A stretch of 20,456 nt of DNA, from IMG/VR virus record IMGVR_UViG_3300047469_000040, positions 1-20,456 of that record; one strand, written 5' to 3'. Source of the stretch: a virus. A model generated the notes under the pieces. The model did no database searches and had not been told where the DNA came from. It saw only the letters and a program-made list of their open reading frames with translations. This document shows, piece by piece, positions 1,120 through 19,549 of this stretch (the stretch's first letter is position 1; every line of letters starts with the position of its first letter). A program made the translations under genes and the position numbers.

Positions 1120-1270
1120 CTTGAGACGAGCATCGGCCGGTCAGTGCGATGTCAGACTCACGCCCGGCTTATAACTCATCGTTCTAAAACTCTCACAATC
1201 CCTGCCGGTCAGTCTTTGGGTAGCCGGACGTCCCGTCTACGTTCCCCAACGGAAAACCGGTAAGGATTAT
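1120..1270 (+). promoter_or_regulatory. Upstream region of the interrupted amidotransferase gene
   Basis: This 150-bp stretch between the last 99-bp repeat and the MCGLAG start codon must hold the promoter of the host gene that begins at 1271. A Shine-Dalgarno-like AAGGA lies at 1262-1266, four bases before the ATG. AT-richer sequence around 1168-1198 (TTATAACT, TTCTAAAACT) could include promoter elements, but I cannot assign -35 and -10 boxes with confidence. No terminator for the lipocalin-like gene is evident. Confidence 0.35.
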
Positions 1271-1309
1271 ATGTGCGGATTAGCTGGTGTATGCCAGATG
1301 CGCCTTTAA
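1271..1309 (+). pseudogene. 5' remnant of class II glutamine amidotransferase gene cut by the prophage
   Basis: A ribosome binding site (AAGGA, 1262-1266) precedes ATG TGC GGA TTA GCT GGT, which reads MCGLAG, and the frame stops after 12 residues at 1309. Met-Cys-Gly-(Leu/Ile)-Ala-Gly is the hallmark N-terminus of Ntn-type glutamine amidotransferases of the asparagine synthase family, where Cys2 becomes the catalytic nucleophile. In Pseudomonas the best fit is the N-acetylglutaminylglutamine (NAGGN) amidotransferase, an osmoprotectant enzyme whose N-terminus I recall as starting MCGL. After about the sixth codon the sequence turns into phage DNA. I infer that the rest of the gene lies beyond the other prophage end and that the attachment core includes some of these first codons. 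The identity rests on six residues plus the RBS, so it is a plausible but unproven call. Confidence 0.5.
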
Positions 1310-1329
1310 TGGGCGTCTGGCGCTAATCC
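1277..1329. other. Dyad at the left prophage boundary (putative att region)
   Basis: A nested dyad spans the point where the host gene start ends. The outer arms GGATTAGC (1277-1284) and GCTAATCC (1322-1329) are exact inverted repeats. The inner arms GCCAGATGCGCC (1293-1304) and GGGCGTCTGGC (1311-1321) pair around a TTTAAT loop with one G-U pair and one mismatch. The outer left arm lies inside the MCGLAG codons. I infer that this is the attL/attR region of the prophage. It might also act as an RNA structure, although no T-run follows it directly, so it is not a typical terminator. The exact core needs the other prophage end. Confidence 0.4.
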
Positions 1330-1361
1330 AAGGCGCTGTTTTCCCCTACTTTCCCCGCCAA

Positions 1362-1383
1362 TTGGTACAAAAAGTGGTACGAG
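1362..1383. promoter_or_regulatory. Paired TGGTAC direct repeats, possible integrase arm sites
   Basis: TTGGTACAAA and GTGGTACGAG place two TGGTAC hexamers 12 bp apart (1363-1368 and 1375-1380), in the same orientation, about 35 bp inside the proposed attachment dyad. Short direct repeats at this distance from a core are what arm-type binding sites of tyrosine recombinases look like. No integrase gene is in the window to test it against, so this is an inference from position and spacing. Confidence 0.3.
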
Positions 1384-1778: not shown

Positions 1779-3230
1779 TCAAGCTGCTTTGATGCTGGCC
1801 GGCTGGTCCAGAAGGCTTTCAAGATCGCTAAGTCGCGCCTCAAAACCTGCCGCGATGAAGAGCAGCAGGCCTTCTTGACGGAACGAGTATCGATCGCCAG
1901 CAATTTGTATTTGCTCCCTTCGAGCAGGCTCGACAACTTCTGTCCATGCTTCACTTTCCAAAATCTGAATGGGCTGTCCAGAAGCATCGACAATTTCAGA
2001 GGCGCTGTAGACGGCCGCGTACTCGCGTGTCTTTTCCGGGTAATCGACAAATTGGTCATCCCATTTGTCATAGCAAATAAAGCTGTAGGCCATCGGGTCA
2101 AGATCGTGCTCTTCCATGATCTCGATTGCCCGCTGCACAGTCATGCCAATGTGATGACGTGCTGCGTCTCCACCCTTATCAGCCACAGCAGACAGAAACT
2201 GGAACGTGCCGATTTCCTTTGCCATCTGCTTGGCAGCAGCCATCTCGTGAGCCGACATAGCGCGGACCTCAGTTTTTTCTCGCGCATCAGATGTGCTTAT
2301 CGTGGCCGTAGCCGCGTAGAGTTGCGACCAGCGACGTGTGAGGTCGCCAAGCGGTTGAGTTGCATCAGCGCCAGGGCGGAAAGTATAGGCACCTGCGGAT
2401 GCGGTCACCTCAACACGCACAGCCCCATTCGTCACAACCTGCATAGGGGTGTTGCCGACAACACCAACCTGGCCGCCTGAGGCAGTTGCCGACATAAATG
2501 ACCTTGAAGACCCATCCCCTGAGACGATCAGCGGCAGGCTGTTGATGTTGTCGGCGCCGATACCGACGTTGCCGTTCAGCCAGTGGCGCCCAGCGCTGGG
2601 CGCATAGATGGCGTAGCCTGTTGACTGTCCGATGTTCAACGCAGCGTTGTTTGTACCGTTGACCAAGTCTTGAATCCTGATCCCGGCGTTACTAGCGATG
2701 CTGCCGCCACCGGTTTTGGTGATGTCGGCGATGTCGATCGCAAAGCGATTGGCGATGACGCCAGAGCCTGAGTGGTTTGCGCGCGAGATCAAGCCCGCCA
2801 TGGTGGCCAGTGTCCCGGATCCGGCGTAGGTCATCCTGTCCTGGAACGCGAACATGTGATCTTGCGCGTTATTGCCCTGAAGGAGCGTCGTTGCGTCGAA
2901 AGCCCCGTATCCACCATAGTCCGTCACCCCGCTCATCACGGTACGGTCTGCGTAGGCATGGCAGTCGGTCAAACCCACCACGTTCCGTGCAACCACAAAC
3001 GCATCCCGCAGTGTCTGACCTGAAATTTCTTGATCGCCCACGATCATTGATGGAGCGCGTAGGCGTTTGGTCGAGTCAATACTGACCATCCCGACCTTGG
3101 CGGCGTTGAAGGCCGCATCACTTGCATAGTTGATCCGGTCTACCAGATTTCGGTAGTCAAGCAAGCTCTTGATGTCCTTGGACGTCAGGCCATCGAGCGT
3201 CTGAAGGTTGTCAGTTCTTAGGGTGCTCAT
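1779..3230 (-). CDS. Tail fibre protein with C-terminal S74 chaperone domain
   Basis: This 483-residue protein is the distal receptor-binding fibre of the prophage. Residues 1 to about 300 are Gly/Ser/Ala/Asn-rich and likely beta-structured. From about 283 (LGDLTRRWSQLYAATATIS) the sequence matches the intramolecular chaperone / peptidase S74 domain of endosialidase-type fibres. The cleavage motif SDAREK has its serine near residue 314, and RHHIGM (about 358-363) supplies the conserved His-x-Gly region. The C-terminus ends in a helix (about 451-475) as these trimerising domains do. In the family the domain guides trimer folding and cuts itself off before that serine. The ATG overlaps the TAA of the upstream adaptor gene by one base (TAATG), so the two are translationally coupled. 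No enzymatic depolymerase motif is recognised in the N-terminal part. Confidence 0.88.
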   Translation of the reverse strand: MSTLRTDNLQTLDGLTSKDIKSLLDYRNLVDRINYASDAAFNAAKVGMVSIDSTKRLRAPSMIVGDQEISGQTLRDAFVVARNVVGLTDCHAYADRTVMSGVTDYGGYGAFDATTLLQGNNAQDHMFAFQDRMTYAGSGTLATMAGLISRANHSGSGVIANRFAIDIADITKTGGGSIASNAGIRIQDLVNGTNNAALNIGQSTGYAIYAPSAGRHWLNGNVGIGADNINSLPLIVSGDGSSRSFMSATASGGQVGVVGNTPMQVVTNGAVRVEVTASAGAYTFRPGADATQPLGDLTRRWSQLYAATATISTSDAREKTEVRAMSAHEMAAAKQMAKEIGTFQFLSAVADKGGDAARHHIGMTVQRAIEIMEEHDLDPMAYSFICYDKWDDQFVDYPEKTREYAAVYSASEIVDASGQPIQILESEAWTEVVEPARREQIQIAGDRYSFRQEGLLLFIAAGFEARLSDLESLLDQPASIKAA

Positions 3231-3967
3231 TAATGAAGCTCTCCATCAGCAATGGTGTAGAAGGAACCCGACCCGACTGTTACCGTCTGGCCCGAAGCAA
3301 TTGTCATGGTTGGCCCGAATGACCAGGCGTTCTTACCAGCAGGTATGGTCACGCTGTTATTGATCGTTTGGCCGTGCCACGAAATTTCGGAAAATGCAGA
3401 TGCCGTAACAGGGACGCTACCAGTTATTTGTGCTTGGAGGTTTGCATCAGCGTCGGCGCGCTGGGCCGCTTCTGTAGCCACGGAACTGGCAACAAAAGAC
3501 TTTGTTGCGGCGTCCTGCGCATTAACCGGATTGGCCAGGTTGACGATTCGCCTGCCCTGAGCGTCGTAATTGACCCCGCCCCGCGGATACCTGAGCGCTC
3601 TTGATCCATCCTCAAGAACCTGCTGAATGAGCATCGTCAGATAGTCGAAGACATCTTCATGAATCTCTGCGAAGTAATCACCCTGATTCCTCAGGTCTGT
3701 CAGTTGCTGCAAGCTCATGACCCGAGAGATGGTCAGGGTTTCGCCGGTGGCCACGGGAGCCGACGTTGTGATCGACCCTCCGATCTGAGACCCAGCGCCC
3801 GCCACGGTGTAATCCGAATTCAGGATCAGCGGGATAATGAAGCCGTCAACGGTTCGCCTGAGGACGACCAGATCGGCATCCTTGAAGAACCTGAATCCCA
3901 CCGGGAAGTTGACGGTTGATGAGTTGCCGTCGTACTGAACGACGCTCGTCGTGTTGGATACGGTCAA
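3230..3967 (-). CDS. T7 gp17-like tail fibre adaptor protein
   Basis: This 245-residue protein carries the T7 tail-fibre N-terminal domain that anchors a fibre to the tail. The opening VVQYDGNSSTVNFPVGFRFF (about 9-28), the DYTVAG strand, the ISRVMSLQQLTDL segment (80-92) and DAQGRRIVNLANPVNAQDA (135-153) align well with the start of T7 gp17, whose equivalent reads DARGRRIVNLAN. A short helical stretch follows (about 160-180) and then a small beta-rich end (SWHGQTI to the C-terminus). I start it at TTG 3967: AGGAG lies eight bases upstream, and the product begins MTVSNTTS. The longer frame from a GTG at 4000 would run through a terminator hairpin and add implausible residues. It lacks a receptor-binding tip, so it probably serves as the connector for the S74 fibre encoded immediately downstream. 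Confidence 0.85.
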   Translation of the reverse strand: MTVSNTTSVVQYDGNSSTVNFPVGFRFFKDADLVVLRRTVDGFIIPLILNSDYTVAGAGSQIGGSITTSAPVATGETLTISRVMSLQQLTDLRNQGDYFAEIHEDVFDYLTMLIQQVLEDGSRALRYPRGGVNYDAQGRRIVNLANPVNAQDAATKSFVASSVATEAAQRADADANLQAQITGSVPVTASAFSEISWHGQTINNSVTIPAGKNAWSFGPTMTIASGQTVTVGSGSFYTIADGELH

Positions 3968-3987
3968 AATGGCTGCTCCTGAAATGC

Positions 3988-4013
3988 AAAAACCCCGCAC
4001 TTGGCGGGGTTTT
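3988..4013 (-). terminator. Rho-independent terminator before the fibre genes
   Basis: AAAACCCCGC (3989-3998) pairs with GCGGGGTTTT (4004-4013) around a five-base loop; on the minus strand the hairpin is followed by a run of five T. The stem is flanked by A/T runs on both sides, so it could work in both directions. It lies between the stop of the large internal protein gene at 4028 and the fibre adaptor start at 3967, and probably lowers or separates fibre transcription from the upstream module. Confidence 0.85.
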
Positions 4014-4027
4014 GGGATGGGATTGGG

Positions 4028-6577
4028 TTATCTCGTTATGCCGAGAGGGTCGATGTAGCTCTGCGATGGCTTGACCAGAAACTGCTGCCCGTTTTCCTTT
4101 TGAATGCGTTGCTCGTTTCGTCTCAGCGAACCGGGGTTCATGGCCTCCTGGACTGAGTAGAAGAACAGGTGGTCCATGGCGATGCGGGTGTAGAACAGGT
4201 TCATGAAGGGCGTGTTGTTCTGCGCCAGCCTGAACGCGGAGGACGCAGCGTCATCACCGGACCGGAGCTTTGACCAAAGGTCGATAGCACTGGCGGCTGT
4301 GCCCAGCACCGGGCCGGCGGCGGATTCCAGAGGCTTGTTGCCGAACCGGCTGGCCTCGCCGAACAGGTAATCCCCAAAGATGCCCATGCCGCCGCCCTGA
4401 ACCATCGCGGCAATCCACGTCTTGGGGTCTTCTGGCGAGCGCGGGGTGCGCTGCTTGATCACGTCCTTGGACGCCATCGACAGGTAGCCGAAAGCAGTGG
4501 TCCACAGCAGCAACTGGGCCATGGCTAGGCGCTCACCGTTACCGTTGCTCAGCGCTGACAGAAAGTCCTTGCTGCCGCGATAGCCTTGGCCCAATGGAGT
4601 TGGGGTGTAGCCACGCCCGTACAGCTCGCGCCCGATCGTCTTCTGCATGTAGGCGGCGGGGAAGCTTTTGAACTGGGTGACAAAACGGATCAGCTCGCCC
4701 GGGATGGTGCCGGGCCGGGTGCCCTGGTTGATGATCGATCGTGTGCGCGCATCGGGCTCGAGCACTGCATAACTCACCCGGTCATTCACGTAGGCGCGCA
4801 GGCTGCGGTCCAGGTCTTCACGGGTTTCGCGGATAGCAGCATCGTTCGCCGGTCGCCCAAGGTCCTGCAGGTGCTGGGTGATTCGCTCGTCGGTGATGGA
4901 GGCGATGCCGTCGGTGGTCATGTAGTCCTTGCCGTCTGCCATCTTCGTTTCCATTTCCCGCATCAGGTCCCACTTCCCAGCGTCCATGCCGTACAGCGAG
5001 AGGGCGCGCTGATACTGAGGGTCAAGATCGCCCCAGCCCTTGGCTTTGTTGTGGGCCAGGTCGTGGGCCATCATCAGTCCTGCGCTGGCCTTGTTGGCAT
5101 CGGTCCACCACGACAAGCCGTTCAGCTTGAAGAACAGCGACATGCCTCGGCTCATCTTGCCGCCCATGGAGTCGTCGGCCGAGAACCGGCGCATGATCTC
5201 GCCGCGCATCGAGTCGGCATAAACACCAAAGCTCGACAGTACCTGGCGTTGTTCATCGCTGCCGCGGCCTTTCACCAGACCGGCAGTCATCTCACCGAGC
5301 GACCCAAGGTAGCTCTTGCCCTGATAGCGGAACTCGCTGGCCGCCACCGGCAGGTCGGTGAAGCTGGACAATAGCGCGCCGCCAAGCTTGGAAAGAGATT
5401 GCCAGGCCCGGACGTTGGCCGAAATCCGAGCGGCGTAGGAACTGCCCGCGATACGGGTATGGCCGCTCACTTCCTTGTATCGGTTGTCCAGCACGCCACG
5501 CCGAGCATCGTTGAAGTTCTTCAGCGCCGCAGGGTCGCCGCCCTTTCGGACATCTTCCTTGATGATGTCCAGCGCCATGTTCAGGTTCGCTTCCGGGTTC
5601 GTGCCGAGCTTGCGCATCAGCGCGGTGTTCTGCCCAGAAAGGTCAAGGCCTCGGAGCACCGCTTCTCGCAGGTTGCCGGTGCCATACAGCTTGTTGTACT
5701 CGTGCCACGCCACGCCGTCGGCGAAGTGCAGCACGCGTTCCTGACTGAGCTTTTTGGCAAGGTTGGCCGGGCCTTTGAATCCGCTCGGAACCGCGCCGGT
5801 GTCGGCTTTCAGGTGGTCGCCGGACAGCAGCCCGTCGTACACGCCTTTGAGGAATTTCCCGGTATCGCCCACGCCGGCGAAGGTTTCCGGGTCGAGGCGC
5901 GGCAGGATGTCGGCCATCCACTTGTCGAACCCGGCAGCGCCCATGCGGTCGGCGTCGTGGCTCTGGCGGGCGATGTAGCCGGGGATCTTGCCGATCGATG
6001 CGCCCGCGCGGTTGGCATCGAGGCGGGTCGTCTCCTGGTATTTCTGGATGATCTTCGCAATTTCAACGACTTGCGGGTTCAGCCCCTTGGTGTCCAGGTC
6101 TTTGCCGAGTTTCCACAGCGCATCAGCGATGTCCTGATCCGAATCACCGCGAGTCAGCACCGGCAACAGGCCCGAGCTTTCCATGTCGTGGATCAGCCCA
6201 CCAATGTACGCATCGCCCAGCGCCTTCTGTTCGGCAGCCACAGACAACCGAGAACCCTGACGCGCAAGGTTGGTGCCCACGAGGAACGACTCGACGCCGA
6301 GATCTGGCCGGTCGGAGAAGTCGCGGCGGATGAACGAAACGAGCTCGGCACGGCGCCGCACGTTGATCAGTGCATTGCGCTTCTCAATGATGGCAGCGTG
6401 TTCAGCCTGCTTCGACAGGTCTTCGGCAGCTTGAAGCGTTGCCCGCTCCATGCCCAGCGCACCATCGCGCGCCATCAGTTCCTTTGCCCGGCCACGGAGC
6501 AGTTCGAATATCTCGACGATTTCCTGATCTTCGATATCGCCGGCGGCGGCCCGGACGGCCTCAACGCATGGGGTCAT
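4028..6577 (-). CDS. Large internal virion protein (gp16-like position), C-terminal component
   Basis: An 849-residue protein, mostly helical, at the place T7 keeps gp16, directly before the tail fibre. Notable stretches are a charged helical N-terminal third, IPGYIARQSHDADRMG near residues 195-210, a hydrophobic segment AMAQLLLWTTAFGYLSMA in the last quarter, and a Gly-rich QGGGMGIFGDYLFG after it, which could enter a membrane during ejection. I see no lysozyme or transglycosylase motif. The ATG overlaps the stop of the preceding gene (ATGA) and AAGGAACGGAAG gives it its own Shine-Dalgarno. By position and size I infer that it is one of the proteins ejected with the genome; the family name is not certain. 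Hypothetical proteins of this kind occur in podovirus prophages of proteobacteria. Confidence 0.7.
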   Translation of the reverse strand: MTPCVEAVRAAAGDIEDQEIVEIFELLRGRAKELMARDGALGMERATLQAAEDLSKQAEHAAIIEKRNALINVRRRAELVSFIRRDFSDRPDLGVESFLVGTNLARQGSRLSVAAEQKALGDAYIGGLIHDMESSGLLPVLTRGDSDQDIADALWKLGKDLDTKGLNPQVVEIAKIIQKYQETTRLDANRAGASIGKIPGYIARQSHDADRMGAAGFDKWMADILPRLDPETFAGVGDTGKFLKGVYDGLLSGDHLKADTGAVPSGFKGPANLAKKLSQERVLHFADGVAWHEYNKLYGTGNLREAVLRGLDLSGQNTALMRKLGTNPEANLNMALDIIKEDVRKGGDPAALKNFNDARRGVLDNRYKEVSGHTRIAGSSYAARISANVRAWQSLSKLGGALLSSFTDLPVAASEFRYQGKSYLGSLGEMTAGLVKGRGSDEQRQVLSSFGVYADSMRGEIMRRFSADDSMGGKMSRGMSLFFKLNGLSWWTDANKASAGLMMAHDLAHNKAKGWGDLDPQYQRALSLYGMDAGKWDLMREMETKMADGKDYMTTDGIASITDERITQHLQDLGRPANDAAIRETREDLDRSLRAYVNDRVSYAVLEPDARTRSIINQGTRPGTIPGELIRFVTQFKSFPAAYMQKTIGRELYGRGYTPTPLGQGYRGSKDFLSALSNGNGERLAMAQLLLWTTAFGYLSMASKDVIKQRTPRSPEDPKTWIAAMVQGGGMGIFGDYLFGEASRFGNKPLESAAGPVLGTAASAIDLWSKLRSGDDAASSAFRLAQNNTPFMNLFYTRIAMDHLFFYSVQEAMNPGSLRRNEQRIQKENGQQFLVKPSQSYIDPLGITR

Positions 6578-8319
6578 CTTCCGTTCCTTATGTCGCAGAT
6601 GGCGGCAGCCTGATAGGCCTTGGAATATTGCTCGGCTTTGGCGGCCTGGGCAGCAGCAGCGTCGGCCTCATCTTTACCGAATTCGGCAATCGATGCGCGA
6701 TCTTGCTCGGGCAACTGGTTGAGCAGGTCGTCGACGAGGGCCTGGTCGTCGGCCAGCGCTTGGCGCGCCTCTTCCAGATCGTCTTTCGGGGTGGCCTGTT
6801 CATCGGCGCGGGCACTGGCGGCTTGCCCTTCACGGTCGACCCTCGGCTCTTGCGGACGGCGAACTTTGTCCATCGCGGCCTGGGATTTGATCGGGTCTTC
6901 CAGGTCGAAGATGTGCTGCACGTCGATGTCGCGACCGGACATGGACTGAGCCACGGCGGTACGCAATGCGCTGTCACGGACCTTGTAATCGGCGAACTGC
7001 GCTGTTTCCCGTGCGGTGCGGACGGCGGCACCCAGCGGCTTTAGTTCGAAGCCGCGCATGATCTGCTTGGTGCGCGCCTCAATCTGCGGGCGAAGGCGTT
7101 CTGGCACTTCACCGCGATCGAGCGTGCCGCGGTCAGCACGGTCCAGCTCGCCGGCGCGGTTCAGCTCCAGCGTGGTGTTGATCTCGTTTTGTCGGGTCCG
7201 GATCTGCTCGCGCTCTGCCGCGATGGATTCCCTGGCGGCGCGCTCAGCCTGCTTGCGGCTCATGCGCTGACCCTGAAACCCCTTGGCTCGATCGCGGTAG
7301 GTTTCGTCCAGCGACATATCGCGCTGGGTCAGGCCCAAGCTCTCGCGTTTCAGATCGGCCACATTGCCTACACGTTCAGCGTCCAGCGTTGGCCGGATCT
7401 CGTCGATTGCCTGGCGCTCGGCGTTGGCGCGGATTGAGCCTTGATCGGACTCAATCTGGCGCGCCAGCGTGTCACGCAAAGCGACGTCTGGGTTGTCATC
7501 GAAGGACTTGGCGAAGTCTGGCGTTGACGCTGCACCCACAGCGCGAGTGGTCGCCGGCATAGCTGCATCGTCGATCTTGGGCGCCGCCACCGGTTCGGTA
7601 GCCAGGTTCTTGCGCAGCGCATCAGAGATCGCGCCGCCCACACTGTGCAGGCCGCCGCCGAGGATGCCGCCGAAGGCGATGTTGGCCAGCGAGTCGGACA
7701 GGCCGTAATCAGTCTGGTCCTGCGCAGCGGCGAGCAGCGGCAGTGGTTCGACAATGGCGGCGCCCACCGCGCCTTCTACCGCACCGACACCCGCCCGAAC
7801 GCCAGCACGGGCCAGCGGCGTCGTGGCGCCGGCAAGAAGCTGGGCGTACCGAGCTTCACCTACCACTGGAACGAACGCGGTGGCGATGTTGAGGGGGTCA
7901 AGCACAGAGGCGGCAAGGCCTGCTGCTACCTGAGTACCGAGATTGCCCGTAGGCGAACGGGCCAGCACCTGCTGACGAGCAATCTGCTCGCGCTGGCGCT
8001 GCATGAGGATGTCCAGCGCGCCAGGGCGGATACCCTCGTCCGGTATTTTCAGGTCGAGACCGGCACCCTGCACCTTCTGTCGGGCCTGCTCCGCGCTGAT
8101 TTTCGGAATTTCAGGCGCATAAACAGCATTGCCGGCCGGGTCGATCACCGGTGAAGGGTCGGTCGCTTCGGCCAAATCCCCAAAGCGGAACAGAGAGTTG
8201 GTCGGGTTGGTGTTTAGCGCGCCCTCAAACGCCGCGCCGAACACATCACCGCTGTCGGACGGCACGTCTAGGAGCGTGCGCCGGTCGAGTGCCGGGGCAT
8301 CGCCGGCGTAGATCGGCAT
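6574..8319 (-). CDS. Internal virion protein, N-terminal component of the gp16-like pair
   Basis: This 581-residue protein has three zones. The first 120 residues include a helical QRQREQIARQQ stretch. Residues about 125-235 are rich in Ala, Gly and Val with several hydrophobic runs (VAAGLAASVLDPLNIATAFVPVV, IAFGGILGGGLHSVGGAI) and look able to insert in a membrane. The rest is highly charged and probably coiled-coil (many Arg, Glu, Asp). Its ATG overlaps the stop of the 697-residue protein by one base and its own stop overlaps the next gene start by four. The layout, with hydrophobic N-part and helical C-part followed by another large helical protein, suggests that this and the 849-residue protein together fill the role of a single gp16-like ejection protein. 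No catalytic motif is recognised. Confidence 0.68.
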   Translation of the reverse strand: MPIYAGDAPALDRRTLLDVPSDSGDVFGAAFEGALNTNPTNSLFRFGDLAEATDPSPVIDPAGNAVYAPEIPKISAEQARQKVQGAGLDLKIPDEGIRPGALDILMQRQREQIARQQVLARSPTGNLGTQVAAGLAASVLDPLNIATAFVPVVGEARYAQLLAGATTPLARAGVRAGVGAVEGAVGAAIVEPLPLLAAAQDQTDYGLSDSLANIAFGGILGGGLHSVGGAISDALRKNLATEPVAAPKIDDAAMPATTRAVGAASTPDFAKSFDDNPDVALRDTLARQIESDQGSIRANAERQAIDEIRPTLDAERVGNVADLKRESLGLTQRDMSLDETYRDRAKGFQGQRMSRKQAERAARESIAAEREQIRTRQNEINTTLELNRAGELDRADRGTLDRGEVPERLRPQIEARTKQIMRGFELKPLGAAVRTARETAQFADYKVRDSALRTAVAQSMSGRDIDVQHIFDLEDPIKSQAAMDKVRRPQEPRVDREGQAASARADEQATPKDDLEEARQALADDQALVDDLLNQLPEQDRASIAEFGKDEADAAAAQAAKAEQYSKAYQAAAICDIRNGR

Positions 8320-10412
8320 CAGTAACCCCCGCTGATCGAAGGTGCTTCAAATGCAGGCTTGTCAGCGCCCTTCTGTAACAGCTGACCCCACGTGCGAACG
8401 ATCGGCTTGCCGTCCTTGCCGAGTACGCGGTAACCGTTCACGGTGAGGTTCAGCCCTGTCTCGTCGTTATTGGTCACCCACTGGCCGCTGCCCACAACGG
8501 CGTCATGTAGTTGTTTCAGGTTTTCTTCCGGCGCAGACCCGCGAAGGCCGGGCAATGGCGCCAAGTCCTCAGGCTTTATGGATTCGAGCGCCATGCTTGC
8601 CCCGGCTTTTACTGTCTGCGCGTCAATCGACTTGGGTACGCGGTACGAGCCGAAGAACTCGTATTTGTCGTTCAGCATCCCGTTCACGACCTTCTGCCCG
8701 GCATCCTTTGGACTCATGCCCTGCAAAACGTAGGAGATCGCGGTCCGCTCGGCGGCCTTGTACATGGTGTTGTAGGTGGAAATGCCACCCGACTGGCCCT
8801 GTAGCGACTCGGCAAACGGCACCATGGCAGATGCCACTGACTGTTGAACCTCGTCGGCCTGACCTTTCTCAAGCGGCTTTTTCAGCTCCGAATCCTTGAT
8901 CGGTGCGACAGAGGCCATGCGTTCGGCGATGTCTTTCGGCAGGCCGGTGGCGATCACCTGAGCCTCGGCCGGGAGCTTGTTGCCCAATTGCTGGATGACG
9001 GCCGGGAAGTTCTTGCCCCATGCGCCCTGCCAGCCTTCGATCAGTTGCGCGGCGTTGTCGCTGCCGCCCTCGGCGATCTTCTGGTTGAACGACACGGCCA
9101 ACTGTTCAGCGGCGGCGTCGGGTAGGATCTTGGCCTGCTGCACGCCAAGTCGGCGTTGCTCGGCCAGGGTGGCGGTGGCGTATTTCTGATAGGCCTCTGG
9201 CGTACCTTCCTGCTGGGCCTGAGCGAAAGCGTTCTGAATCACTGGGCTGTACTTGGCAACATAGGCGGCAGGGTCCTCCTGGCGCTGCTTCATCAGGGAT
9301 GATCCGACTGTGGCCAGGTGCTGGTAGATCTGCGCATCTTCTTTGAAACCTTCGCCCGCGACACCGCCCTTGCCTGGCTGGAACTTCTCCAGCAACTGTT
9401 TCGCCTCTTCGGGCGTGGCAGTGGCCAACTCACGAACAGCGGGCGCCACGTCCTGCACCTTCTTGAAACTGTCGTATTCGTCTGCGGCCTTGTCGCCGTA
9501 CGCAGCCTTGAAGTCAGCCATGCTCGGAGGGTTCTTGAAGTCCAGGCCCTGCGTGTAGGCAGCGGTTGCATCTTCTACGCGCCCACGCAATTCCATGCGG
9601 TTGATGGCTTGGATCTGCCGGGCTTCCACGGCGCGCTGCCGGGCTTCGGCTTCGCGGCGTCGCTCTTCCTGCTGGGTGGCGTTCCCGACTCGCAACTGGT
9701 CGTCAGCAGTCATCCCCTCTCGCGAGGCTTCCAGGTACTGCTTGGCGCCGTTCGGATCTTGTTCTGCCTGGCGCCCGATGACGCCGGTGAGCAGGCGGCT
9801 ACTCGCGCCCAGTTGTTGCAGCTGGGTTTCCTCTGGTGACCAGCCATTGCGCTGCGCCTGAGAGGCCACGACATCCATGGCCTTCTGCCGGAAGTAGCCA
9901 ACCTTGCTTGGGTCGCTGAAGTTGAGCGCAGCCGAGTCCTGCGACAGCTTGATCGACGCAGTGTCCGTGTCGTTCATGTACTGCTGGTGCTGGCCGTACT
10001 CGTATTTATTCAGGTCTTGCGACATCGAGCTTTTGCGCGACATCACCAGCTGGTTGAAGCGTGCCTTCTGCCGCTCGTTGGTCAGCGATGACCCAACTTC
10101 CTGCTGATACTTGTCGAACTGGTCGAGGGTCTGGTTGGTGACGTCGAGCGCATTCTTGCCCTTGCGGGTGTAGACGCCGTTCTCTTGGCCGAAGAAGGCC
10201 TTGTTCTGCCACTCGGTCAGCTTGTTGTCGGCCTCAATCAATGAGGTGGTGTCGGCACGCTGCTGTTGCTCTTCGACGATATCGGTTGCTGCCCGGCCAG
10301 CTTGGTAAATTCCTCGCTCAAGACCCTGGGTGTCGACAACCTGAGCCTGCGCACGAACGTTTGGCAGAGGTGCCTGCTGAACCTGTCTGCGGTATTGGGG
10401 AACGGTAGGCAT
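8319..10412 (-). CDS. Internal virion protein, gp15-like position
   Basis: This 697-residue, mainly helical, soluble-looking protein is rich in Gln, Ala, Glu and Lys, with long charged helices (for example QQEERRREAEARQRAVEARQIQ) that may form coiled coils. The segment GVYTRKGKNALDVT near residues 70-83 recalls a motif seen at the N-terminus of podovirus internal proteins. I start it at ATG 10412 (MPTVPQYRRQ) because GGGGAGATAAG lies just upstream; the open frame extends to 10568 but only through the preceding gene in another frame. The start lies one base past the stop of the gp14-like gene. By order (13, 14, 15, 16-like) and composition I infer a T7 gp15-type ejection protein forming part of the periplasmic tube. 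Sequence similarity to T7 itself is not visible by eye. Confidence 0.68.
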   Translation of the reverse strand: MPTVPQYRRQVQQAPLPNVRAQAQVVDTQGLERGIYQAGRAATDIVEEQQQRADTTSLIEADNKLTEWQNKAFFGQENGVYTRKGKNALDVTNQTLDQFDKYQQEVGSSLTNERQKARFNQLVMSRKSSMSQDLNKYEYGQHQQYMNDTDTASIKLSQDSAALNFSDPSKVGYFRQKAMDVVASQAQRNGWSPEETQLQQLGASSRLLTGVIGRQAEQDPNGAKQYLEASREGMTADDQLRVGNATQQEERRREAEARQRAVEARQIQAINRMELRGRVEDATAAYTQGLDFKNPPSMADFKAAYGDKAADEYDSFKKVQDVAPAVRELATATPEEAKQLLEKFQPGKGGVAGEGFKEDAQIYQHLATVGSSLMKQRQEDPAAYVAKYSPVIQNAFAQAQQEGTPEAYQKYATATLAEQRRLGVQQAKILPDAAAEQLAVSFNQKIAEGGSDNAAQLIEGWQGAWGKNFPAVIQQLGNKLPAEAQVIATGLPKDIAERMASVAPIKDSELKKPLEKGQADEVQQSVASAMVPFAESLQGQSGGISTYNTMYKAAERTAISYVLQGMSPKDAGQKVVNGMLNDKYEFFGSYRVPKSIDAQTVKAGASMALESIKPEDLAPLPGLRGSAPEENLKQLHDAVVGSGQWVTNNDETGLNLTVNGYRVLGKDGKPIVRTWGQLLQKGADKPAFEAPSISGGY

Positions 10413-10413
10413 C

Positions 10414-10887
10414 TTATCTCCCCAGCTTGGCGTAGGTGGAAGCGCCCTGAGCACCGGCGCCCAGCAGCGAGCCGAACATGTTGTTCTTGGCTGACTGGAC
10501 TGCGGTTTTCGCCGATTGGCGATAGGTATCGGACTGGGTCTTGTAACCCCACGCCTCGCGCGCGGCATTGTTCCGAATGGTCAGGGCGTCGAATTCACCC
10601 AATTGAGCGGTGTCATCCTGAATGTTTGCAGCGGTGCCACTGTTCACATCGACCCCGTTGGCAGCGAAACCTGCACGCTGGGTGCCGATGGCGGCCGTGG
10701 TGGCCAAGCGTTGCTGATCTTCTTCAACAGCGCCACGCTTGATCGCATCGTTTGCCGCCGCGTCAGAATATGCAGCGTTCTGCAGGTCAGATGATGCTTG
10801 GGCCGCACCAGCCTGTTTTGCCGCCTGCGCGCCCATCACGCCCTGCGCTGCCATCAAGGCAAAAGGAATTGCCGCTACTGCGCACAT
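10414..10887 (-). CDS. Internal virion protein, gp14-like
   Basis: This 157-residue protein opens with a hydrophobic helix (about residues 3-22, AVAAIPFALMAAQGVMG) and continues as an Ala/Gln/Asn-rich amphipathic helix with GTQRAGFAANGVDVNSGTA around residues 67-85. That phrase (a Gly-Val-Asp-x-x-Ser-Gly-Ser/Thr block) is characteristic of T7 gp14-like internal core proteins, which insert in the outer membrane during DNA ejection. GGAGGG lies six bases before the ATG, and the gene overlaps the end of the gp13-like gene by 13 bases. Position between gp13-like and gp15-like genes agrees with the call. Confidence 0.75.
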   Translation of the reverse strand: MCAVAAIPFALMAAQGVMGAQAAKQAGAAQASSDLQNAAYSDAAANDAIKRGAVEEDQQRLATTAAIGTQRAGFAANGVDVNSGTAANIQDDTAQLGEFDALTIRNNAAREAWGYKTQSDTYRQSAKTAVQSAKNNMFGSLLGAGAQGASTYAKLGR

Positions 10888-11351
10888 GCAGTGCCCTCCA
10901 TCTCGAATGGGTAAAAGAGTTCTTGGTTAATGCCGTAAGGAATGGCGGGCAGAAAGGTGAATCCCAGCCACTTGAGCCAGCGCACAGCCTGGGTGTTTCG
11001 CACGTCGGCGAAGTTGATCAGCCGCTGATGGCGAGTGCGCATATCGGCAACGACATCCACGCATTCGGCCAGAAAGGCGCGGCGGTGGACTTCGATCCAT
11101 GTCGAGCTGACCATCCATGGCAGCCCATAAACGGAGTCGTGAGCCACGTCGCCGAAGATCGCCAGCACCTTCCCGTCGCAGATGCAGGCCCGGGCACGCA
11201 AGCTTTTCTCGATCGCGTGAATCAGTTCGTGTTCAACCGACCAGCCGCGAATCGCTTCAAGCTCGACGCGATCTGCTTCACGGATATGAGCGAGCAAGGC
11301 AGTCACATGGCGCGCCTTGACGTCGACCAGATTAGCCGCCGGCTTGCACAT
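10875..11351 (-). CDS. gp13-like protein with GNAT-type fold
   Basis: A 158-residue protein resembling the T7 gp13 family (formerly DUF2833), which has an acetyltransferase-like fold but no proven acetyltransferase activity. Supporting features are the N-terminal DVKARHVTALLAHIREAD helix, DGKVLAIFGDVAH (a strand-turn-strand as in GNAT beta2-beta3), the WIEVHRRAFLAECVDVVADM helix and the ending NTQAVRWLKWLGFTF, which is the typical last helix and strand of GNAT proteins. In T7, gp13 is needed for virion assembly but is not in the finished particle. The ATG lies inside the end of the nozzle gene (20-base overlap), preceded by a GGGGGTG Shine-Dalgarno. Confidence 0.75.
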   Translation of the reverse strand: MCKPAANLVDVKARHVTALLAHIREADRVELEAIRGWSVEHELIHAIEKSLRARACICDGKVLAIFGDVAHDSVYGLPWMVSSTWIEVHRRAFLAECVDVVADMRTRHQRLINFADVRNTQAVRWLKWLGFTFLPAIPYGINQELFYPFEMEGTACAQ

Positions 11352-13644
11352 TGAAGAGCACCCCCAACACGCTAAGCGGCAGAGGGTCAGACTGCCGAAT
11401 GAATACTCGCCCCGGCTGCTCCCAGTTGGCAGACACCGTAATTTCGGCTTGCCCGGTCAGAAGCTTGATCGGATCGTTGTAATTCTCGGTATTGCGCTGC
11501 TTGAATTCATACAGATGCTCGGCATCAGTCCCGGCAAAAATCCCCCTGCTTTCTTCGCATATGGCGGTGATTTCATTCACCCGCTTCTGCACGCCAAGGA
11601 AATTGGGCTGGTTCTGCAGTGTCATGTCGAGCGTTTCAAAGTCGCTCAGAAACGGTAGGCCGATATGTACCAGCATCGCGGGGCGCTGGATGGACACAGC
11701 ACCACTGACAACCACGGCTTGAGGTTCCACGTTTCCATCCGCAAAGATGCTGACGGTCTTTCCTTCAAGATGGGACAGCCCGCTGAACGTTGCCCGAGCC
11801 CTGCCCCAGCGCACCGCCGGGAGGTTGCGCAGAGATTCAGGCACGATTGACCCTGGCGTGACGGTGAGGCTTGTGCCGCTGGTATAGGCGGTCACGGTCA
11901 AACGGACAATCTGACCATCTTTGCCGCGCAGAATAATGACTGTACCGACATCCCCTACAACGAACGTGGATGTTTTCGCAGTTAGGGTAAGCGGATTTGG
12001 GTATTTCCAGTCTGTTCCGCCAGTCAGGGTAACTGCGGCAGATGTTGGGCCGCGACCATCGTAGGTAAGCCCGGCGTCCACGAAGAACGACCGATCAAGC
12101 GCAGTGTCTTCACCGGGGACGCTGAGCTGGCGCGAGACGAGGCGCTCAACGTAGCGCCGCGATACGCCGTTGATGATTCGGCGCACGATGAAATACACCG
12201 CGTCTTCATCACCTTCCGGAACTGATGCCACCGATTCGTAGAACCCGTCGGTGTCGTGGCGGTGCCAGCTGAACACTTCCTGAGCCGGTAGGTAGGTGAA
12301 ACCCAGCAATTGCCCGTCATTGCGCACGATCCACAGAACGCTGTTCGGCACCTGGGCAAGGGTCATGTCCTTGATTTCGAACCCGCGCACTAGGTGGGAC
12401 GATAATACGGTGAGGTCCTGCCCCTGAAATCCATCGCTGGTGTAGGAGTAAGCCAGGTCTGCAAGCTTCTGACCGCGGGCCTGAACATAGAGCGCGGTGT
12501 TGCCGTAGACAGCCGGCGGGACAGTTCCGGAACCGATATAGCTCTGCACCTGAGCCTGAATGTTGGTGGGCTTCAGGCCTGTCGCGTCACCGGTGATGGT
12601 CCACTCTGCACCAGAGGTCAGCACCAGCAATTCTTTGAGCGGCACCAATGCACGGATGCGGTTCACCTGCCGCGACGCAAGCGTGACCGTGATCGCATCG
12701 TCGTCCTTGGTCGGAGTGGAGAAGCCGAAGTTGTTGTATGCACCGACACGGCTGAACCACAGCGTTTGAGGGTTGGCGTTACTGGCGCCAAACACTCGAC
12801 GCTGCTGGTAATAGCCGACGACGCCGGGGTTGTTGCCACCGGCAAACGGGTTGTCGAACGATGGAGGAGTGTCTGTCTTGGTCGGACCGATGGCGTTATC
12901 AGTGAAGGTCAGCCCGGAGGCCTGGCCGATAAATCCGAAGATCCCCGACCCGTTGTTGTCCTTGTAGATGTTGTAGTGGTCGACACTGCCGGGCGCGGCG
13001 GTCCAGGTAAGAACCGCACCCGCCTTGTTATCCCAGCTGGTGACACTGGCCTGCGCACTGGGCAGGGATTCTTCAGCCGACTCATCGGTCGACACACTGG
13101 TGACCACATACCGGTAAACCGTGGTGTCGCCGGTGCCACCCGTGCGGGGAATCCCCGACAACCCTGTGGGTGGCTGGATCGTCGGCACGAACGTAATTGC
13201 GGTCAGCGTCCAGTTGGTTGGGCCAAAACGCTTGAGCTCCATCGGCGCGTAGTTGGGATGAACGATCGTCATCACGTCGGCCGACTGGGTGTAGTTCAGC
13301 GCGTACAGGTCTGCCTCGACGTAGGGCGAGGCGATTTCATACGTCAGGCCTGCGTTCAGCAGCTGCCCGCCGTTGGTGTAAAACCGGATGTAGCCGACAC
13401 CGAACTCGAGGACGTAGGTCTGCTCGGTGCTGAACTGGAAAGGAATCAGCCGCGACTTCTGCGCGCTGACCTTTGTTTCTGCCAGGAATTTGGTCCCGGA
13501 TCGATTACGAACCCCGCCTTCCGGCATGACCATGAAGTTGCGGCACGTTCTGAGCCCGGTGAAATACCGGTTCAGGTCGACGCGGGCATAGGTGGCCGGG
13601 GCCAGCTCGCCCGAACTGAACGATGGCTGAATGCTCTGGCTCAT
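11332..13644 (-). CDS. Tail tubular protein B / nozzle (gp12-like), with Fn3-like insert
   Basis: This 770-residue protein begins QPSFSSGELAPATYARVDLNRY and continues with CRNFMVMPEGGVRNRSGTKF (residues 34-53), the hallmark opening of podovirus nozzle / tail tubular B proteins. It forms the tail tip below the gp11-like ring and is beta-propeller rich. Residues about 157-260 (PPTGLSG..., VYRYVVTSVSTDESAEES, LTWTAAPGSVDHYNIYK) look like a fibronectin type III-like module inserted in the body, then GYYQQRRVFGASNANPQTLWFS returns to the family pattern. The ATG overlaps the stop of the gp11-like gene (ATGA), indicating coupling of the two tail proteins. The start has only a weak ribosome binding site, in keeping with coupling. 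Confidence 0.87.
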   Translation of the reverse strand: MSQSIQPSFSSGELAPATYARVDLNRYFTGLRTCRNFMVMPEGGVRNRSGTKFLAETKVSAQKSRLIPFQFSTEQTYVLEFGVGYIRFYTNGGQLLNAGLTYEIASPYVEADLYALNYTQSADVMTIVHPNYAPMELKRFGPTNWTLTAITFVPTIQPPTGLSGIPRTGGTGDTTVYRYVVTSVSTDESAEESLPSAQASVTSWDNKAGAVLTWTAAPGSVDHYNIYKDNNGSGIFGFIGQASGLTFTDNAIGPTKTDTPPSFDNPFAGGNNPGVVGYYQQRRVFGASNANPQTLWFSRVGAYNNFGFSTPTKDDDAITVTLASRQVNRIRALVPLKELLVLTSGAEWTITGDATGLKPTNIQAQVQSYIGSGTVPPAVYGNTALYVQARGQKLADLAYSYTSDGFQGQDLTVLSSHLVRGFEIKDMTLAQVPNSVLWIVRNDGQLLGFTYLPAQEVFSWHRHDTDGFYESVASVPEGDEDAVYFIVRRIINGVSRRYVERLVSRQLSVPGEDTALDRSFFVDAGLTYDGRGPTSAAVTLTGGTDWKYPNPLTLTAKTSTFVVGDVGTVIILRGKDGQIVRLTVTAYTSGTSLTVTPGSIVPESLRNLPAVRWGRARATFSGLSHLEGKTVSIFADGNVEPQAVVVSGAVSIQRPAMLVHIGLPFLSDFETLDMTLQNQPNFLGVQKRVNEITAICEESRGIFAGTDAEHLYEFKQRNTENYNDPIKLLTGQAEITVSANWEQPGRVFIRQSDPLPLSVLGVLFNVQAGG

Positions 13645-14279
13645 CGGCTTTCGCGCCCGGTGATGAATACTGACTCAGGCATCTGCTGGCCTTGACCCTC
13701 GTTCATGCTCTGCGCGAAGGCAGAATCGACAACTCCTCGATACGCAGCTTCCAGCCGATCAGCGATGCCCGGGTCTTTGGCCAGCGCCGGCGCAATCTCG
13801 ACGCCGAGCTTGTAGGCCAGCGCAGATACGAAGATGGGATCGAAGAAGCCGGGATCGTCAATGCGAACGGTGTATTCGAGCGTGGCCGGAGTGACAGATG
13901 TGGCGATCAGGCGGGTGGATTCGCCCTGAATCACTCGGAACGGGATGGGCTGCAGTTGCGGGATGCACACGTCATTACCAGCAAACGGCCAGTAATCGAC
14001 AGGGAATATCTGGTTCACGATCTTCCGCGCATACAGGCAGTCGGTCGGGAACGCATAACTGTAGGGGTATATCGGGTCGGGGTTGGTCGTGATTTCTGCC
14101 AGGCTGGCGAATTTAGTGGCGAATGCCCATGGCTTGTCACGAAGCACCCAGTCGCGGGTCTGTTCATAGAACAGCGAGCACTCTTCAGCTTGCTTGCTGC
14201 GCTCTGTCAAGCTGTCGATGCGCTGACTATTGCCGATGCGCGACAAGGCCATATTGCAGATTTCAACGACACTTGGCAT
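13641..14279 (-). CDS. Tail tubular protein A (gp11-like)
   Basis: This 212-residue protein matches the tail-tube / head-completion protein that sits under the portal. The N-terminal pattern EICNMALSRIGNSQRIDSLTERSKQAEECSLFYEQTRDWVLRDKPWAFA (broken here by residues 6-54) is typical: Cys-Asn-x-Ala-Leu, Ile-Gly, then a helix ending in a Pro-Trp-x-Phe-Ala. Later come PTDCLYARKIV and a C-terminal helix (KDPGIADRLEAAYRGVVDSA). The ATG follows the previous stop by four bases with GAAGG upstream. It is followed at once by the nozzle gene, the same pair as T7 genes 11 and 12. Confidence 0.87.
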   Translation of the reverse strand: MPSVVEICNMALSRIGNSQRIDSLTERSKQAEECSLFYEQTRDWVLRDKPWAFATKFASLAEITTNPDPIYPYSYAFPTDCLYARKIVNQIFPVDYWPFAGNDVCIPQLQPIPFRVIQGESTRLIATSVTPATLEYTVRIDDPGFFDPIFVSALAYKLGVEIAPALAKDPGIADRLEAAYRGVVDSAFAQSMNEGQGQQMPESVFITGRESR

Positions 14280-14283
14280 GAGA

Positions 14284-14637
14284 TCAGCCTTCGAGATCGA
14301 TTCGCTGCTTCAGGACAGCCGAGTACTCGGCCATGGCGCCGCACTGAGTGGTCAGCAGTTCTTGTGATTTAGAAGAAAGATTCTTGAAGCCTGCCGTCGA
14401 AATGAAGGCAGACAATTTTGCGAGACGGTCATCAAGCTGGGCTTTCTCGCCAATAACTCGCTGCAGATGAGGAGGAAGATCCTTCACCTTGCCAATGCCT
14501 ATGTAAGCGCTTTCGAATATGCCCTTCGGACTCCAGCTGGTGTATCCGTCCGAGTATTTGACGGCAAATCCATCAAGGCCATCTTTGAGTTCAGGCCAGG
14601 CGGTTACTTGCTTGGTGCCGATATATTCTTGTGTCAT
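14284..14637 (-). CDS. Small 'YIGTK' phage protein of unknown function
   Basis: A 117-residue protein. I start it at ATG 14637 (MTQEYIGTK) because GAGGA lies seven bases before it; the upstream GTG at 14655 would place the start inside the terminator. It has two parts. Residues 3-55 (YIGTKQVTAWPELKDGLDGFAVKYSDGYTSWSPKGIFESAY) match a motif widespread in phages, YIGTK-x-V-x-A, then DGY-x-SWSPK-x-x-FE-x-AY. The rest is a helical pair (LDDRLAKLSAFI and ELLTTQCGAMAEYSAVLKQRI) also seen alone in phage proteins. It sits between capsid and tail genes. The activity is unknown. Confidence 0.75.
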   Translation of the reverse strand: MTQEYIGTKQVTAWPELKDGLDGFAVKYSDGYTSWSPKGIFESAYIGIGKVKDLPPHLQRVIGEKAQLDDRLAKLSAFISTAGFKNLSSKSQELLTTQCGAMAEYSAVLKQRIDLEG

Positions 14638-14653
14638 TAGATAATCCTCGGGC

Positions 14654-14678
14654 AAAAAGAAAGGGGCCCGAAGGCCCC
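14654..14678 (-). terminator. Rho-independent terminator with TTCG loop, after the capsid block
   Basis: On the minus strand GGGGCC, the stable tetraloop TTCG and GGCCCC (stem 14663-14668 with 14673-14678) are followed by TTTCTTTTT. It lies right after the coiled-coil gene stop (14695) and just ahead of the ribosome binding site of the next gene. It would end a share of transcripts from the head module and so make tail genes less abundant than capsid genes. Confidence 0.85.
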
Positions 14679-14694
14679 AGTGTTGCGGGTTGCG

Positions 14695-15117
14695 TTACTT
14701 CTTGGCTTTGTCGACCAGTGCAGCTTCCTTGGCCGCGACATCCTTCTCGCGGGCGTCCAGCTCGGACGCTTTAGTTACAGCGGACTGCTCCCGGGCGTCG
14801 AGGTCTTTTGCCCGACCATCAGCATCTTCGATCATCTGATCAAGTTGCTGCTCCCGGGCGTCGACATCCTTTTCTCGTTTTGCGATCTCATCCTCGCGCA
14901 GATTTAACTCCTTCTCACGCACGTCGAGATCGACCGCCTGAGTGTCCGGCTCAACATCAGGATCTTCGTAAGCCTCCTGACCTTCCAGCAAACGCAGGTT
15001 AGGGCCCGGCCGACCTTCGTACTCGACATGCTCGCCCGCCTGGTAGATGCGGTCGTCGATGTAGCTGGGCTCCAACACTTCATACTTGCGCGGGCCAGCT
15101 TCTTTTTTCTTAGCCAT
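14695..15117 (-). CDS. Coiled-coil virion-region protein with eleven heptads
   Basis: A 140-residue protein. I place the start at ATG 15117 (MAKKKEAGPRK), seven bases after GAGGG; an in-frame GTG one codon earlier is less likely. Residues 12-44 (YEVLEPSYIDDRIYQAGEHVEYEGRPGPNLRLL) look like a small beta domain of a type found in phage head-associated proteins (tyrosine, then Y-x-x-G-E-x-V, then P-x-NL-x-x-L). Residues 64-140 are a continuous heptad array with core residues L64, L71, I78, V85, L92, A99, L106, A113, L120, V127 and L134, built on degenerate DAREK/DAREQ repeats (D65-K69, D86-Q90, D107-Q111, D121-K125). It lies between the cement protein and a terminator. The role is unknown; a trimeric or dimeric coiled-coil spike or assembly factor are both possible. 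Confidence 0.78.
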   Translation of the reverse strand: MAKKKEAGPRKYEVLEPSYIDDRIYQAGEHVEYEGRPGPNLRLLEGQEAYEDPDVEPDTQAVDLDVREKELNLREDEIAKREKDVDAREQQLDQMIEDADGRAKDLDAREQSAVTKASELDAREKDVAAKEAALVDKAKK

Positions 15118-15127
15118 CACTCAACCC

Positions 15128-15586
15128 TCAGAAGTTGTAGCCTTTGGTGTACGCACGGAATGCCTGAACATCCTTCGCGAAGAACGCGGAGAACGCGCCA
15201 GCAGTCAGCGGGCCAGTGGCGACGGTGTAGCGCACACCGATGTAACGCTTGTAGGCGTCGGCCGGCAGCTTGAACGCCATGAGCGTCTTGCCGCCGGTCA
15301 GTGCCGCCAAGGCGTAGACCGGGGATGCGAAGTGGACCGTCGGAGCGGTGGCGATGTCGGCGGTGGTGGACGACTCCAGGGTGACCTGAACAGTCGCGGC
15401 ACCTGCCGCAGTGGCGGTGGTGTCTACCTGAACAACCAGATAGACGTCCTCGCCCACACCGATATCGCGGGTGGCGTTGCTGTTGACCGCGTTGCCGACC
15501 GGGAAAAGGTCGTAAACGTTGGTCGAGATGGCGGTCGCGGTGACCACCTGGCTGTCGGAAAACTCAGCCTGCTTATCTACGTACAT
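15128..15586 (-). CDS. Bbp16-like capsid cement protein
   Basis: This 152-residue protein resembles the capsid cement (decoration) protein of Bordetella phage BPP-1, Bbp16. Characteristic parts are the opening MYVDKQAEFSDSQ, VYDLFPVG, a strand-rich core with Thr/Ala/Val, and the closing KRYIGVRYTVATGPLTAGAFSAFF (residues about 116-139), followed by KDVQAF. Cement proteins bind the outside of the expanded capsid and stabilise it. AAGGAGA stands seven bases before the ATG, the strongest kind of site, as expected for a protein needed in hundreds of copies. It follows the major capsid gene by 11 bases. Confidence 0.85.
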   Translation of the reverse strand: MYVDKQAEFSDSQVVTATAISTNVYDLFPVGNAVNSNATRDIGVGEDVYLVVQVDTTATAAGAATVQVTLESSTTADIATAPTVHFASPVYALAALTGGKTLMAFKLPADAYKRYIGVRYTVATGPLTAGAFSAFFAKDVQAFRAYTKGYNF

Positions 15587-15597
15587 GGTGAGTCTCC

Positions 15598-16602
15598 TTA
15601 AACCACTCGGGCTTCGGTGTTGAGGATTGCATCGACACGACGCACAGGCACTTCGCCGAACATCAGCGCTGGTTTGCCTGCTACGTTGTCGTAGCTCAGG
15701 GTGCCTGCGGCCACCTTGTTCACGGTCTGGCGGCGGAGGAAGGAGCGTACGCGGCGCGATACATAGAACACCGGAGTCACACCAGTCAGGCTTTGGATCA
15801 GTTCAAGCGCCTGCGTCATCAGGTCGATGATGTCTCCACCGGTTGCTGCGTTCTTGGTCAGCGCCGACACATCGATGTTCGCGATGCGAACGATGTAGCG
15901 CCAGTCCTTGACCGCGATACCAGCTTTCCACTGGTACTGGTCCATAAGTGCGCGGAAACGGTTGCCGTTGACATCGAAAGCGTCACCTTCACCCAGGTCT
16001 TTGTGCACCAGACCAGCCTTCGACCCTTTCGGGTAGATGCCGTGCACGGTTTTCTCGCCCCAACCGATCAGCCAGATCGAGGTGTTGGTGGAACCAGTAC
16101 CGCCGGCATCGATGACGTTGTTGGCGGTCTGGGCGTTTGCGGTGTTTACGGTGTTGAACCGAGGAGCCAAGCCCGTGAACGACTCAGGAACGATCTCTTG
16201 GTTGCCGTAGATGGCGCCAACCTGCATGGTCTGGTTCATAGACTCCATGAAGGACGACGATTCAGACAGACGGAAGGCTGCGGTGTTGCCGTTGAGCTCA
16301 GCCAGATCGACGTCGACCTGACCGCGGCCTTCCATGATTCCGCAGGCTTCATCCACTTGCGCAGTGGTCGATTTGCTTGGCGGCACACCGCTGTTGAGCT
16401 TGCGGTAAATCACGGTAGGCAAGCCGGTTCGGGTGGTGATGCGTGAGCCGGTAGGCAGGTTGCCTTCGTAAAAAGGCATGTCCAGCAGCATTTCGTTTTC
16501 CTGAGTCAGCAACTCAGCAATCGGCATGATGCCGCCGCCGTCAGGGTTCATGCGTTTCGCTACGTCGAGCAGCGTCGGTACGGTATTACCAATGGTGGCC
16601 AT
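15598..16602 (-). CDS. Major capsid protein (BPP-1/Bcep22 type)
   Basis: A 334-residue HK97-fold type capsid protein by context and composition. It opens IGNTVPTLLDVAKRMNPDGG, followed by NEMLLDMPFYEGNLPTGSRITTRTGLP, the phrase shared by major capsid proteins of BPP-1-like and related podoviruses. A long central region includes RFNTVNTANAQTANNVIDAGGTGSTNTSIWLIGWGEK (broken here by residues about 148-184), and the end reads FGEVPVRRVDAIL. AAGGAG precedes the ATG by eight bases. It lies between the scaffold-like gene and the cement gene, the usual head order. No separate protease is visible, and no slippery site for an extended capsid form was noticed at the 3' end. Confidence 0.88.
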   Translation of the reverse strand: MATIGNTVPTLLDVAKRMNPDGGGIMPIAELLTQENEMLLDMPFYEGNLPTGSRITTRTGLPTVIYRKLNSGVPPSKSTTAQVDEACGIMEGRGQVDVDLAELNGNTAAFRLSESSSFMESMNQTMQVGAIYGNQEIVPESFTGLAPRFNTVNTANAQTANNVIDAGGTGSTNTSIWLIGWGEKTVHGIYPKGSKAGLVHKDLGEGDAFDVNGNRFRALMDQYQWKAGIAVKDWRYIVRIANIDVSALTKNAATGGDIIDLMTQALELIQSLTGVTPVFYVSRRVRSFLRRQTVNKVAAGTLSYDNVAGKPALMFGEVPVRRVDAILNTEARVV

Positions 16603-16614
16603 GAGCGGCGCTCC

Positions 16615-17244: not shown

Positions 17245-17545
17245 CGTTCTGTTTCTCCGGTTGCGGTGAGTTTTCGCGGACCATGACCGGGTACATCTCC
17301 GGGCACAGCCGGTTGATTTCGCCCAGCAGGTACAAACCGTGCTGGCGCATTCCCTCGTACAGGCTCATTCGCCCGCCGTGGGTGTCGAAGGTGGTGCCGA
17401 ATATCTTTGCGGTGCACATCTGTGCCCAGACAATGCGGCGACCGCGCTGGGATTCCATGAGCCAGAGGAAATCGTCATCGAGGCGCTTTTGTTGCAGGCG
17501 CGCCTTCAGCTCCAGCTGTTCCTGGATGTCGTCGTCATCAAGCAT
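17237..17545 (-). CDS. Bbp19-like protein
   Basis: A 102-residue protein that resembles the Bbp19 family, named after its BPP-1 member. The helical acidic N-terminus (LDDDDIQEQLELKARLQQKRLDDDFLWLM, broken by residues 2-30) leads to RGRRIVWAQMCTAKIFGTTF and then the conserved MSLYEGMRQHGLYLLGEINRLCPEMYPVM, with the Glu-Gly-x-Arg-x-x-Gly core. The function is unknown; in related phages it always lies between portal and scaffold. The ATG begins on the base after the portal stop codon, so re-initiation is likely. Confidence 0.82.
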   Translation of the reverse strand: MLDDDDIQEQLELKARLQQKRLDDDFLWLMESQRGRRIVWAQMCTAKIFGTTFDTHGGRMSLYEGMRQHGLYLLGEINRLCPEMYPVMVRENSPQPEKQNDD

Positions 17546-19234: not shown

Positions 19235-19237
19235 CGA

Positions 19238-19540: not shown

Positions 19541-19549
19541 GGCCGCCTC

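Follow-up and report, generated by a model that had tools for sequence, protein, structure and literature searches.

A podovirus prophage in the first codons of Pseudomonas asnO and a candidate promoter within the integrase genes of elements at this site

The window analysed here is a 20,456-nucleotide stretch, positions 1 to 20,456 of IMG/VR virus record IMGVR_UViG_3300047469_000040. Positions 1-1289 are Pseudomonas chromosome, with P. abietaniphila as the closest species, and phage DNA runs from 1290 onward. The host part opens with a plus-strand gene for a CrtC/AttH-like lipocalin protein, located 5' of asnO (1-765; Pfam CrtC 1.6e-40, Lipocalin_9 2.4e-44), and continues with intergenic repeats of a dispersed host family (780-1130; internal copies 88-91% identical). 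Gene and repeats occupy the same place in P. abietaniphila ATCC 700689 (L004) with ~91% DNA identity. The repeat GGTGACTGGACCGGCGCATTCGCTGCCCTCGTCACCTCGGACGTCTCC, present as tandem copies in the window, occurs at ~100 places in the P. abietaniphila genome. Next on the plus strand lie the native asnO promoter and leader (1168-1270), now cut off from their gene, with TATAAC at 1170-1175 and a ribosome-binding site, AAGGA, at 1262-1266. This leader is 94-97% identical to those of L004, L007 and L008 (97% in L004), and its blocks are near-invariant in an alignment of 22 Pseudomonas asnO leaders. Part of the ribosome-binding site is paired in a small hairpin of the native leader (UCC..CGG/CCG..GGA), which could mark a regulatory leader; no covariation was seen in the hairpin because the sequence is invariant, and no RNA structure is therefore claimed. 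An Rfam search of the window gave no match.

The asnO reading frame begins with ATG at 1271 and is truncated (1271-1309, plus strand): six host codons are followed by phage DNA, the frame shifts after GGTG, and the stop codon at 1307-1309 ends a product of 12 residues, MCGLAGVCQMRL. DNA identity to L004 stops at base 1289, which places the attL copy of an att core that includes the start codon, ATGTGCGGATTAGCTGGTG, at 1271-1289. The preliminary description had read the ribosome-binding site, the ATG, the MCGLAG start and the 12-residue frame in the same way. It had also set a prophage boundary in the first codons of this gene, which agrees with the end of host identity and the virion genes that follow, and its core of 1271-1290 differs by one base from the end observed. 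Prophages often spare their hosts by integrating into tRNA genes or at 3' gene ends; no tRNA is present at the window edge, as had been noted before. That the host/phage junction is an assembly chimera is extremely improbable: the window comes from one incomplete IMG/VR record, but the break falls exactly on a core used by many independent elements.

The interrupted gene is the N-acetylglutaminylglutamine amide (NAGGN) synthase gene asnO/ggnA, as was proposed from its first codons. MCGLAG at 1271 is the N-terminus of a class II amidotransferase with Cys2, and GATase_6 and GATase_7 are found in L004. The intact asnO of L004 encodes 590 aa and matches TIGR03104 (N-acetylglutaminylglutamine amidotransferase) at E=4.9e-294; the match is full-length, with 976 bits vs a cutoff of 570, while the window carries the first codons only. 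Six Pseudomonas genomes contain the exact 24-mer GGATTATATGTGCGGATTAGCTGG, each time followed by GA[AG].T.CG and the asnO coding sequence, and the junction is not a chance resemblance because this 24-mer opens asnO in all six. These six phage-free relatives have an intact asnO at this place. In P. abietaniphila L004 the uninterrupted MCGLAG gene stands behind the same upstream DNA, which is the arrangement expected beforehand of a phage-free relative. The exact attL 24-mer had no match in IMG/VR; a shorter core did give matches there.

From 1290 the window is a temperate podovirus, with genes for tail, head, portal and terminase. Immediately inside the left end lies a plus-strand hairpin (1293-1322; fold -22 kcal/mol, z -2.3), at which no T-run terminator was found, and then a probable integrase arm-type site on the same strand, GGTAC-N7-GGTAC (1364-1380). 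Its paired repeats are common to the elements at this site, which suggests the arm function. Tail fibre/spike genes follow on the minus strand (1779-4000; PHROGs tail families, Peptidase_S74, a T7-type fibre N-terminus). The remaining minus-strand virion genes (4028-20455; PHROGs, NCBIfam and Pfam matches) encode internal virion proteins, tail tubes, major capsid, protease, portal and terminase large subunit. The virion proteins are 52-89% identical to those of vB_PaeP_Tr60_Ab31 and FBPa42, and the window is assigned to the Tr60_Ab31-type podoviruses by capsid, portal, tail and terminase genes that match and keep their order. The host flank and the att core show that this virus was integrated. 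The integrase and the right end are absent from the record because the contig stops inside the terminase gene; the attR of this prophage must therefore be deduced from relatives.

When the left end of the window was queried across Pseudomonas, the matches covered mostly the shared GGTAC region. The closest left ends are in contigs L117 and L131-L133, whose right sides lack the integrase-asnO arrangement. Together with L088, these contigs carry TGTATGCCAGATGCGCC and paired GGTAC as the window does, behind upstream DNA other than the asnO leader. Window positions 1272-1289 recur in L132 behind different upstream DNA; in the same contig GTGTGCGGATTAGCTGGTG follows a small reading frame and may represent an attP or some other site. 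The integrase of the window prophage may be a divergent one, because these nearest left ends have different upstream DNA. Close podovirus relatives have different integrases, and inspection of the closest podovirus contigs did not reveal that of the window.

The start of asnO is an integration hotspot. A search with the core query ATGTGCGGATTAGC[TA]GG in 399 Pseudomonas species genomes and in IMG/VR returned two recurrent junction types, joined at a core of 17-19 bp with the start codon inside. The left type consists of native leader, core and phage DNA with paired GGTAC, and window positions 1168-1380 have this composition, that of an element at the asnO start; native leader joined to an element left end occurs in 9/399 Pseudomonas genomes. 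The right type consists of an integrase gene, about 40-55 bp, the core and a complete asnO. Both ends lie on one contig in G355 (about 38.6 kb), G129 (48.7 kb) and G312 (16.4 kb), and remnants at the same site measure ~6.6 kb (G030) and ~4.9 kb (G299); the same core is present at both element ends in all five. Nearly all elements at the asnO site have paired GGTAC at their left ends and close to the 3' end of the integrase gene. Tandem pairs of elements are seen in G390 C76 and G107 C68 (L074-L077), where the upstream integrase is eroded yet has the block described below. Core copies in G183 and G051 were considered as attR and rejected, being located at other sites. The open-access papers searched yielded nothing relevant on prophages in asnO.

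In the right ends of relatives, an integrase gene of about 394 aa ends ~40-55 bp 5' of asnO on the same strand. The integrases of this type form a clade of sequences at least 75% identical to intG355. Among the clade genomes examined, the core follows the end of the integrase match at +39 to +53 bp, and the asnO frame stays open as far as the locus extends, with one exception, a tandem junction in G382. IMG/VR members with enough DNA have the same layout. Core and full frame return at the right end, and the asnO coding sequence is therefore kept while native promoter, leader and ribosome-binding site are lost. The earlier idea that a start has to come back at the other end thus agrees with the relatives, in which the core brings the ATG and the right end the whole frame; for the window prophage itself, analogy with these relatives suggests a right end of the same kind. 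Plain disruption of asnO, with little or no NAGGN in the lysogen, would accord with the attL frame that stops after 12 residues and with the phage-side AAGG, which stands at -15 in nearly all right ends, a long spacing for a ribosome site. Every complete right end, however, has an open asnO with ATG, and decayed loci are open too, so that we regard disruption as improbable.

The integrase gene of these elements contains a block, GTTTTATTGAACGAT-N~17-CTCGA, at codons 265-276 that is nearly frozen at the nucleotide level. In intact integrase genes it encodes VLLND...ALEKA. The codons GTT TTA TTG AAC GAT are almost invariant in 44 distinct asnO-clade genes, with TTA and TTG retained for leucine, while neighbouring codons vary. 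The five-codon VLLND window has a mean pairwise synonymous identity of 0.973 vs a mean of 0.604 (44 genes, 46 windows); this peak has a permutation p=0.0002, and the 274-279 region ranks second. The same synonymous peak and block are absent from 54 sister integrases. Across 2.5 Mb of loci, the motif occurs only in asnO-clade integrases, in their relatives or beside asnO. No sigma-70 promoter match was found at the block; the GAAC-N18/19-TC spacing presumably resembles an AlgU-type (extracytoplasmic sigma factor) site, a likeness in which we place low confidence. The block shows no match to the native PA3458 motif (TTTCAGTTGGAAGCA). A resemblance of the block's reverse complement to the native ATCGTTC-TAAAAC was dropped, since the alignment needs a gap.

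Decayed elements carry the same block. In 11/11 decayed loci it lies 168-418 bp before asnO while the integrase is otherwise eroded; these genomes (G346, G245, G257, G350, G388, G183, G294, G384, G358, G396 and G143) were chosen for an asnO without native leader and an eroded integrase, and the block was not used in choosing them. Judged by the identity of their asnO genes, they represent at least four host groups, and loci inside one host clade are not independent. When right ends are aligned with decayed loci, one piece survives, TTTTATTGAACG[AT]TC, 12-14 bases, ACTCG and A-rich DNA, and the sequence upstream of it is unrelated between loci. The asnO coding sequence is still open in the decayed loci. 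A motif scan of the genus added nine further decayed loci; having been picked by the motif, they add no independent evidence that the block is retained. In total, asnO stands behind integrase-derived DNA in at least 32/399 Pseudomonas genomes (11 + 9 + 12 right ends). Retention of integrase-derived DNA 5' of the host gene after decay is a feature of these loci in other genomes, not of the window. A large reading frame, which we take to be DUF6543-like, lies 5' of the eroded integrase by asnO in L076, L078 and L085 and is possibly retained cargo.

These observations suggest that the block is a candidate promoter replacing the native asnO promoter. The frozen block could instead serve the phage and not asnO, as an operator, an antisense promoter or a recombination site within the integrase gene, and its conservation in intact, functional-looking integrase genes and the lack of a sigma-70 match are compatible with such a role. 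We nevertheless consider a phage-serving block unlikely, since several host lineages retain it along with asnO after loss of the integrase and every phage gene, and sister integrases that target other sites lack it.

The explanation proposed is that the prophage integrated in the first asnO codons of a P. abietaniphila-like Pseudomonas, through a core that holds the start codon. By analogy with relatives, its missing right end would comprise a tyrosine integrase gene directed toward asnO, about 40-55 bp, the core and a complete asnO, so that the order integrase, core, GAATTACG... asnO is expected. Integration would keep the protein and put phage DNA in place of the native promoter and leader, a promoter within the integrase coding sequence (the block above) would transcribe asnO in the lysogen, and hosts would retain this promoter piece while the rest of the element decays. 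Taken whole, from integration at the core through an integrase-borne asnO promoter to host retention after decay, this explanation is probably correct.

The preliminary description had suggested that excision or lysogeny could act as a switch on asnO; as an on/off switch, integration would silence the gene and regulated excision restore it. Integration does remove the native promoter, leader and ribosome-binding site, and a precedent exists in SpyCIM1 of Streptococcus pyogenes, in which mutL is silenced by integration and switched back by regulated excision (PMC3430984). The suggestion is not borne out by the right ends: in every one examined, asnO has its ATG and full frame intact behind a co-directional integrase gene with the conserved candidate promoter. 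Decayed, non-excisable remnants hold asnO in the same arrangement and still contain the candidate promoter piece. Permanent promoter replacement would fit these sequences better than a switch, for which there is little probability.

The native asnO promoter is repressed by PA3458 in P. aeruginosa (PMC8070244), and NAGGN synthesis matters for growth of P. synxantha in salt (PMC12442406). An integrase clade has settled at the start of this osmoprotectant gene, returns the start codon and apparently carries a replacement promoter in its own coding sequence. With asnO behind integrase-derived DNA in some 8% of sampled Pseudomonas species, mostly in decayed form, phage integration has apparently rewired osmoadaptation on repeated occasions. 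More broadly, we lean slightly towards the view that the integrase clade evolved an in-frame promoter for the host gene it displaces, that lysogens keep making the osmoprotectant under phage control, that several host lineages adopted the promoter for good after phage loss, and that the folE sisters described below point to general 5'-end integration.

Several known elements resemble this system in part. Tr60_Ab31 and FBPa42 share the virion module and its order with the window, with a major capsid 89% identical; no asnO junction was found in their records, and in Tr60_Ab31 the tail fibre gene has a recombinase gene as its neighbour, which is missing at that position in the window. The integrases of the Pseudomonas phages MD8, TC7, JBD44 and PseuP_224 are 51-56% identical to the asnO type. 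Sister integrases, ~53% identical, differ from the asnO type in their location in front of folE, to which the right end gives a GTG start, and in lacking the block. Loci of this kind are L345, L347-L349, L351, L352, L355 and L357, with matching left junctions in L020, L021, L027 and L037. Targeting of 5' ends appears to be a feature of the wider integrase family, because the folE sisters share the layout. The SpyCI elements of Streptococcus pyogenes are likewise phage-like elements at the 5' end of a host gene, with the integrase gene adjoining that gene. In SpyCIM5 a cryptic promoter in a decayed integrase reading frame drives mutL (PMC3430984), and here too a decayed integrase gene keeps a candidate promoter for the host gene. 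The two systems differ in bacteria, integrase and gene, and SpyCI excision is tied to growth phase. Unlike SpyCI, the asnO elements have a core that holds the start codon, and conservation of their candidate promoter extends to intact integrases. Promoter rescue of the SpyCIM5 type is already known; the conserved block inside the integrase genes is the new observation made here.
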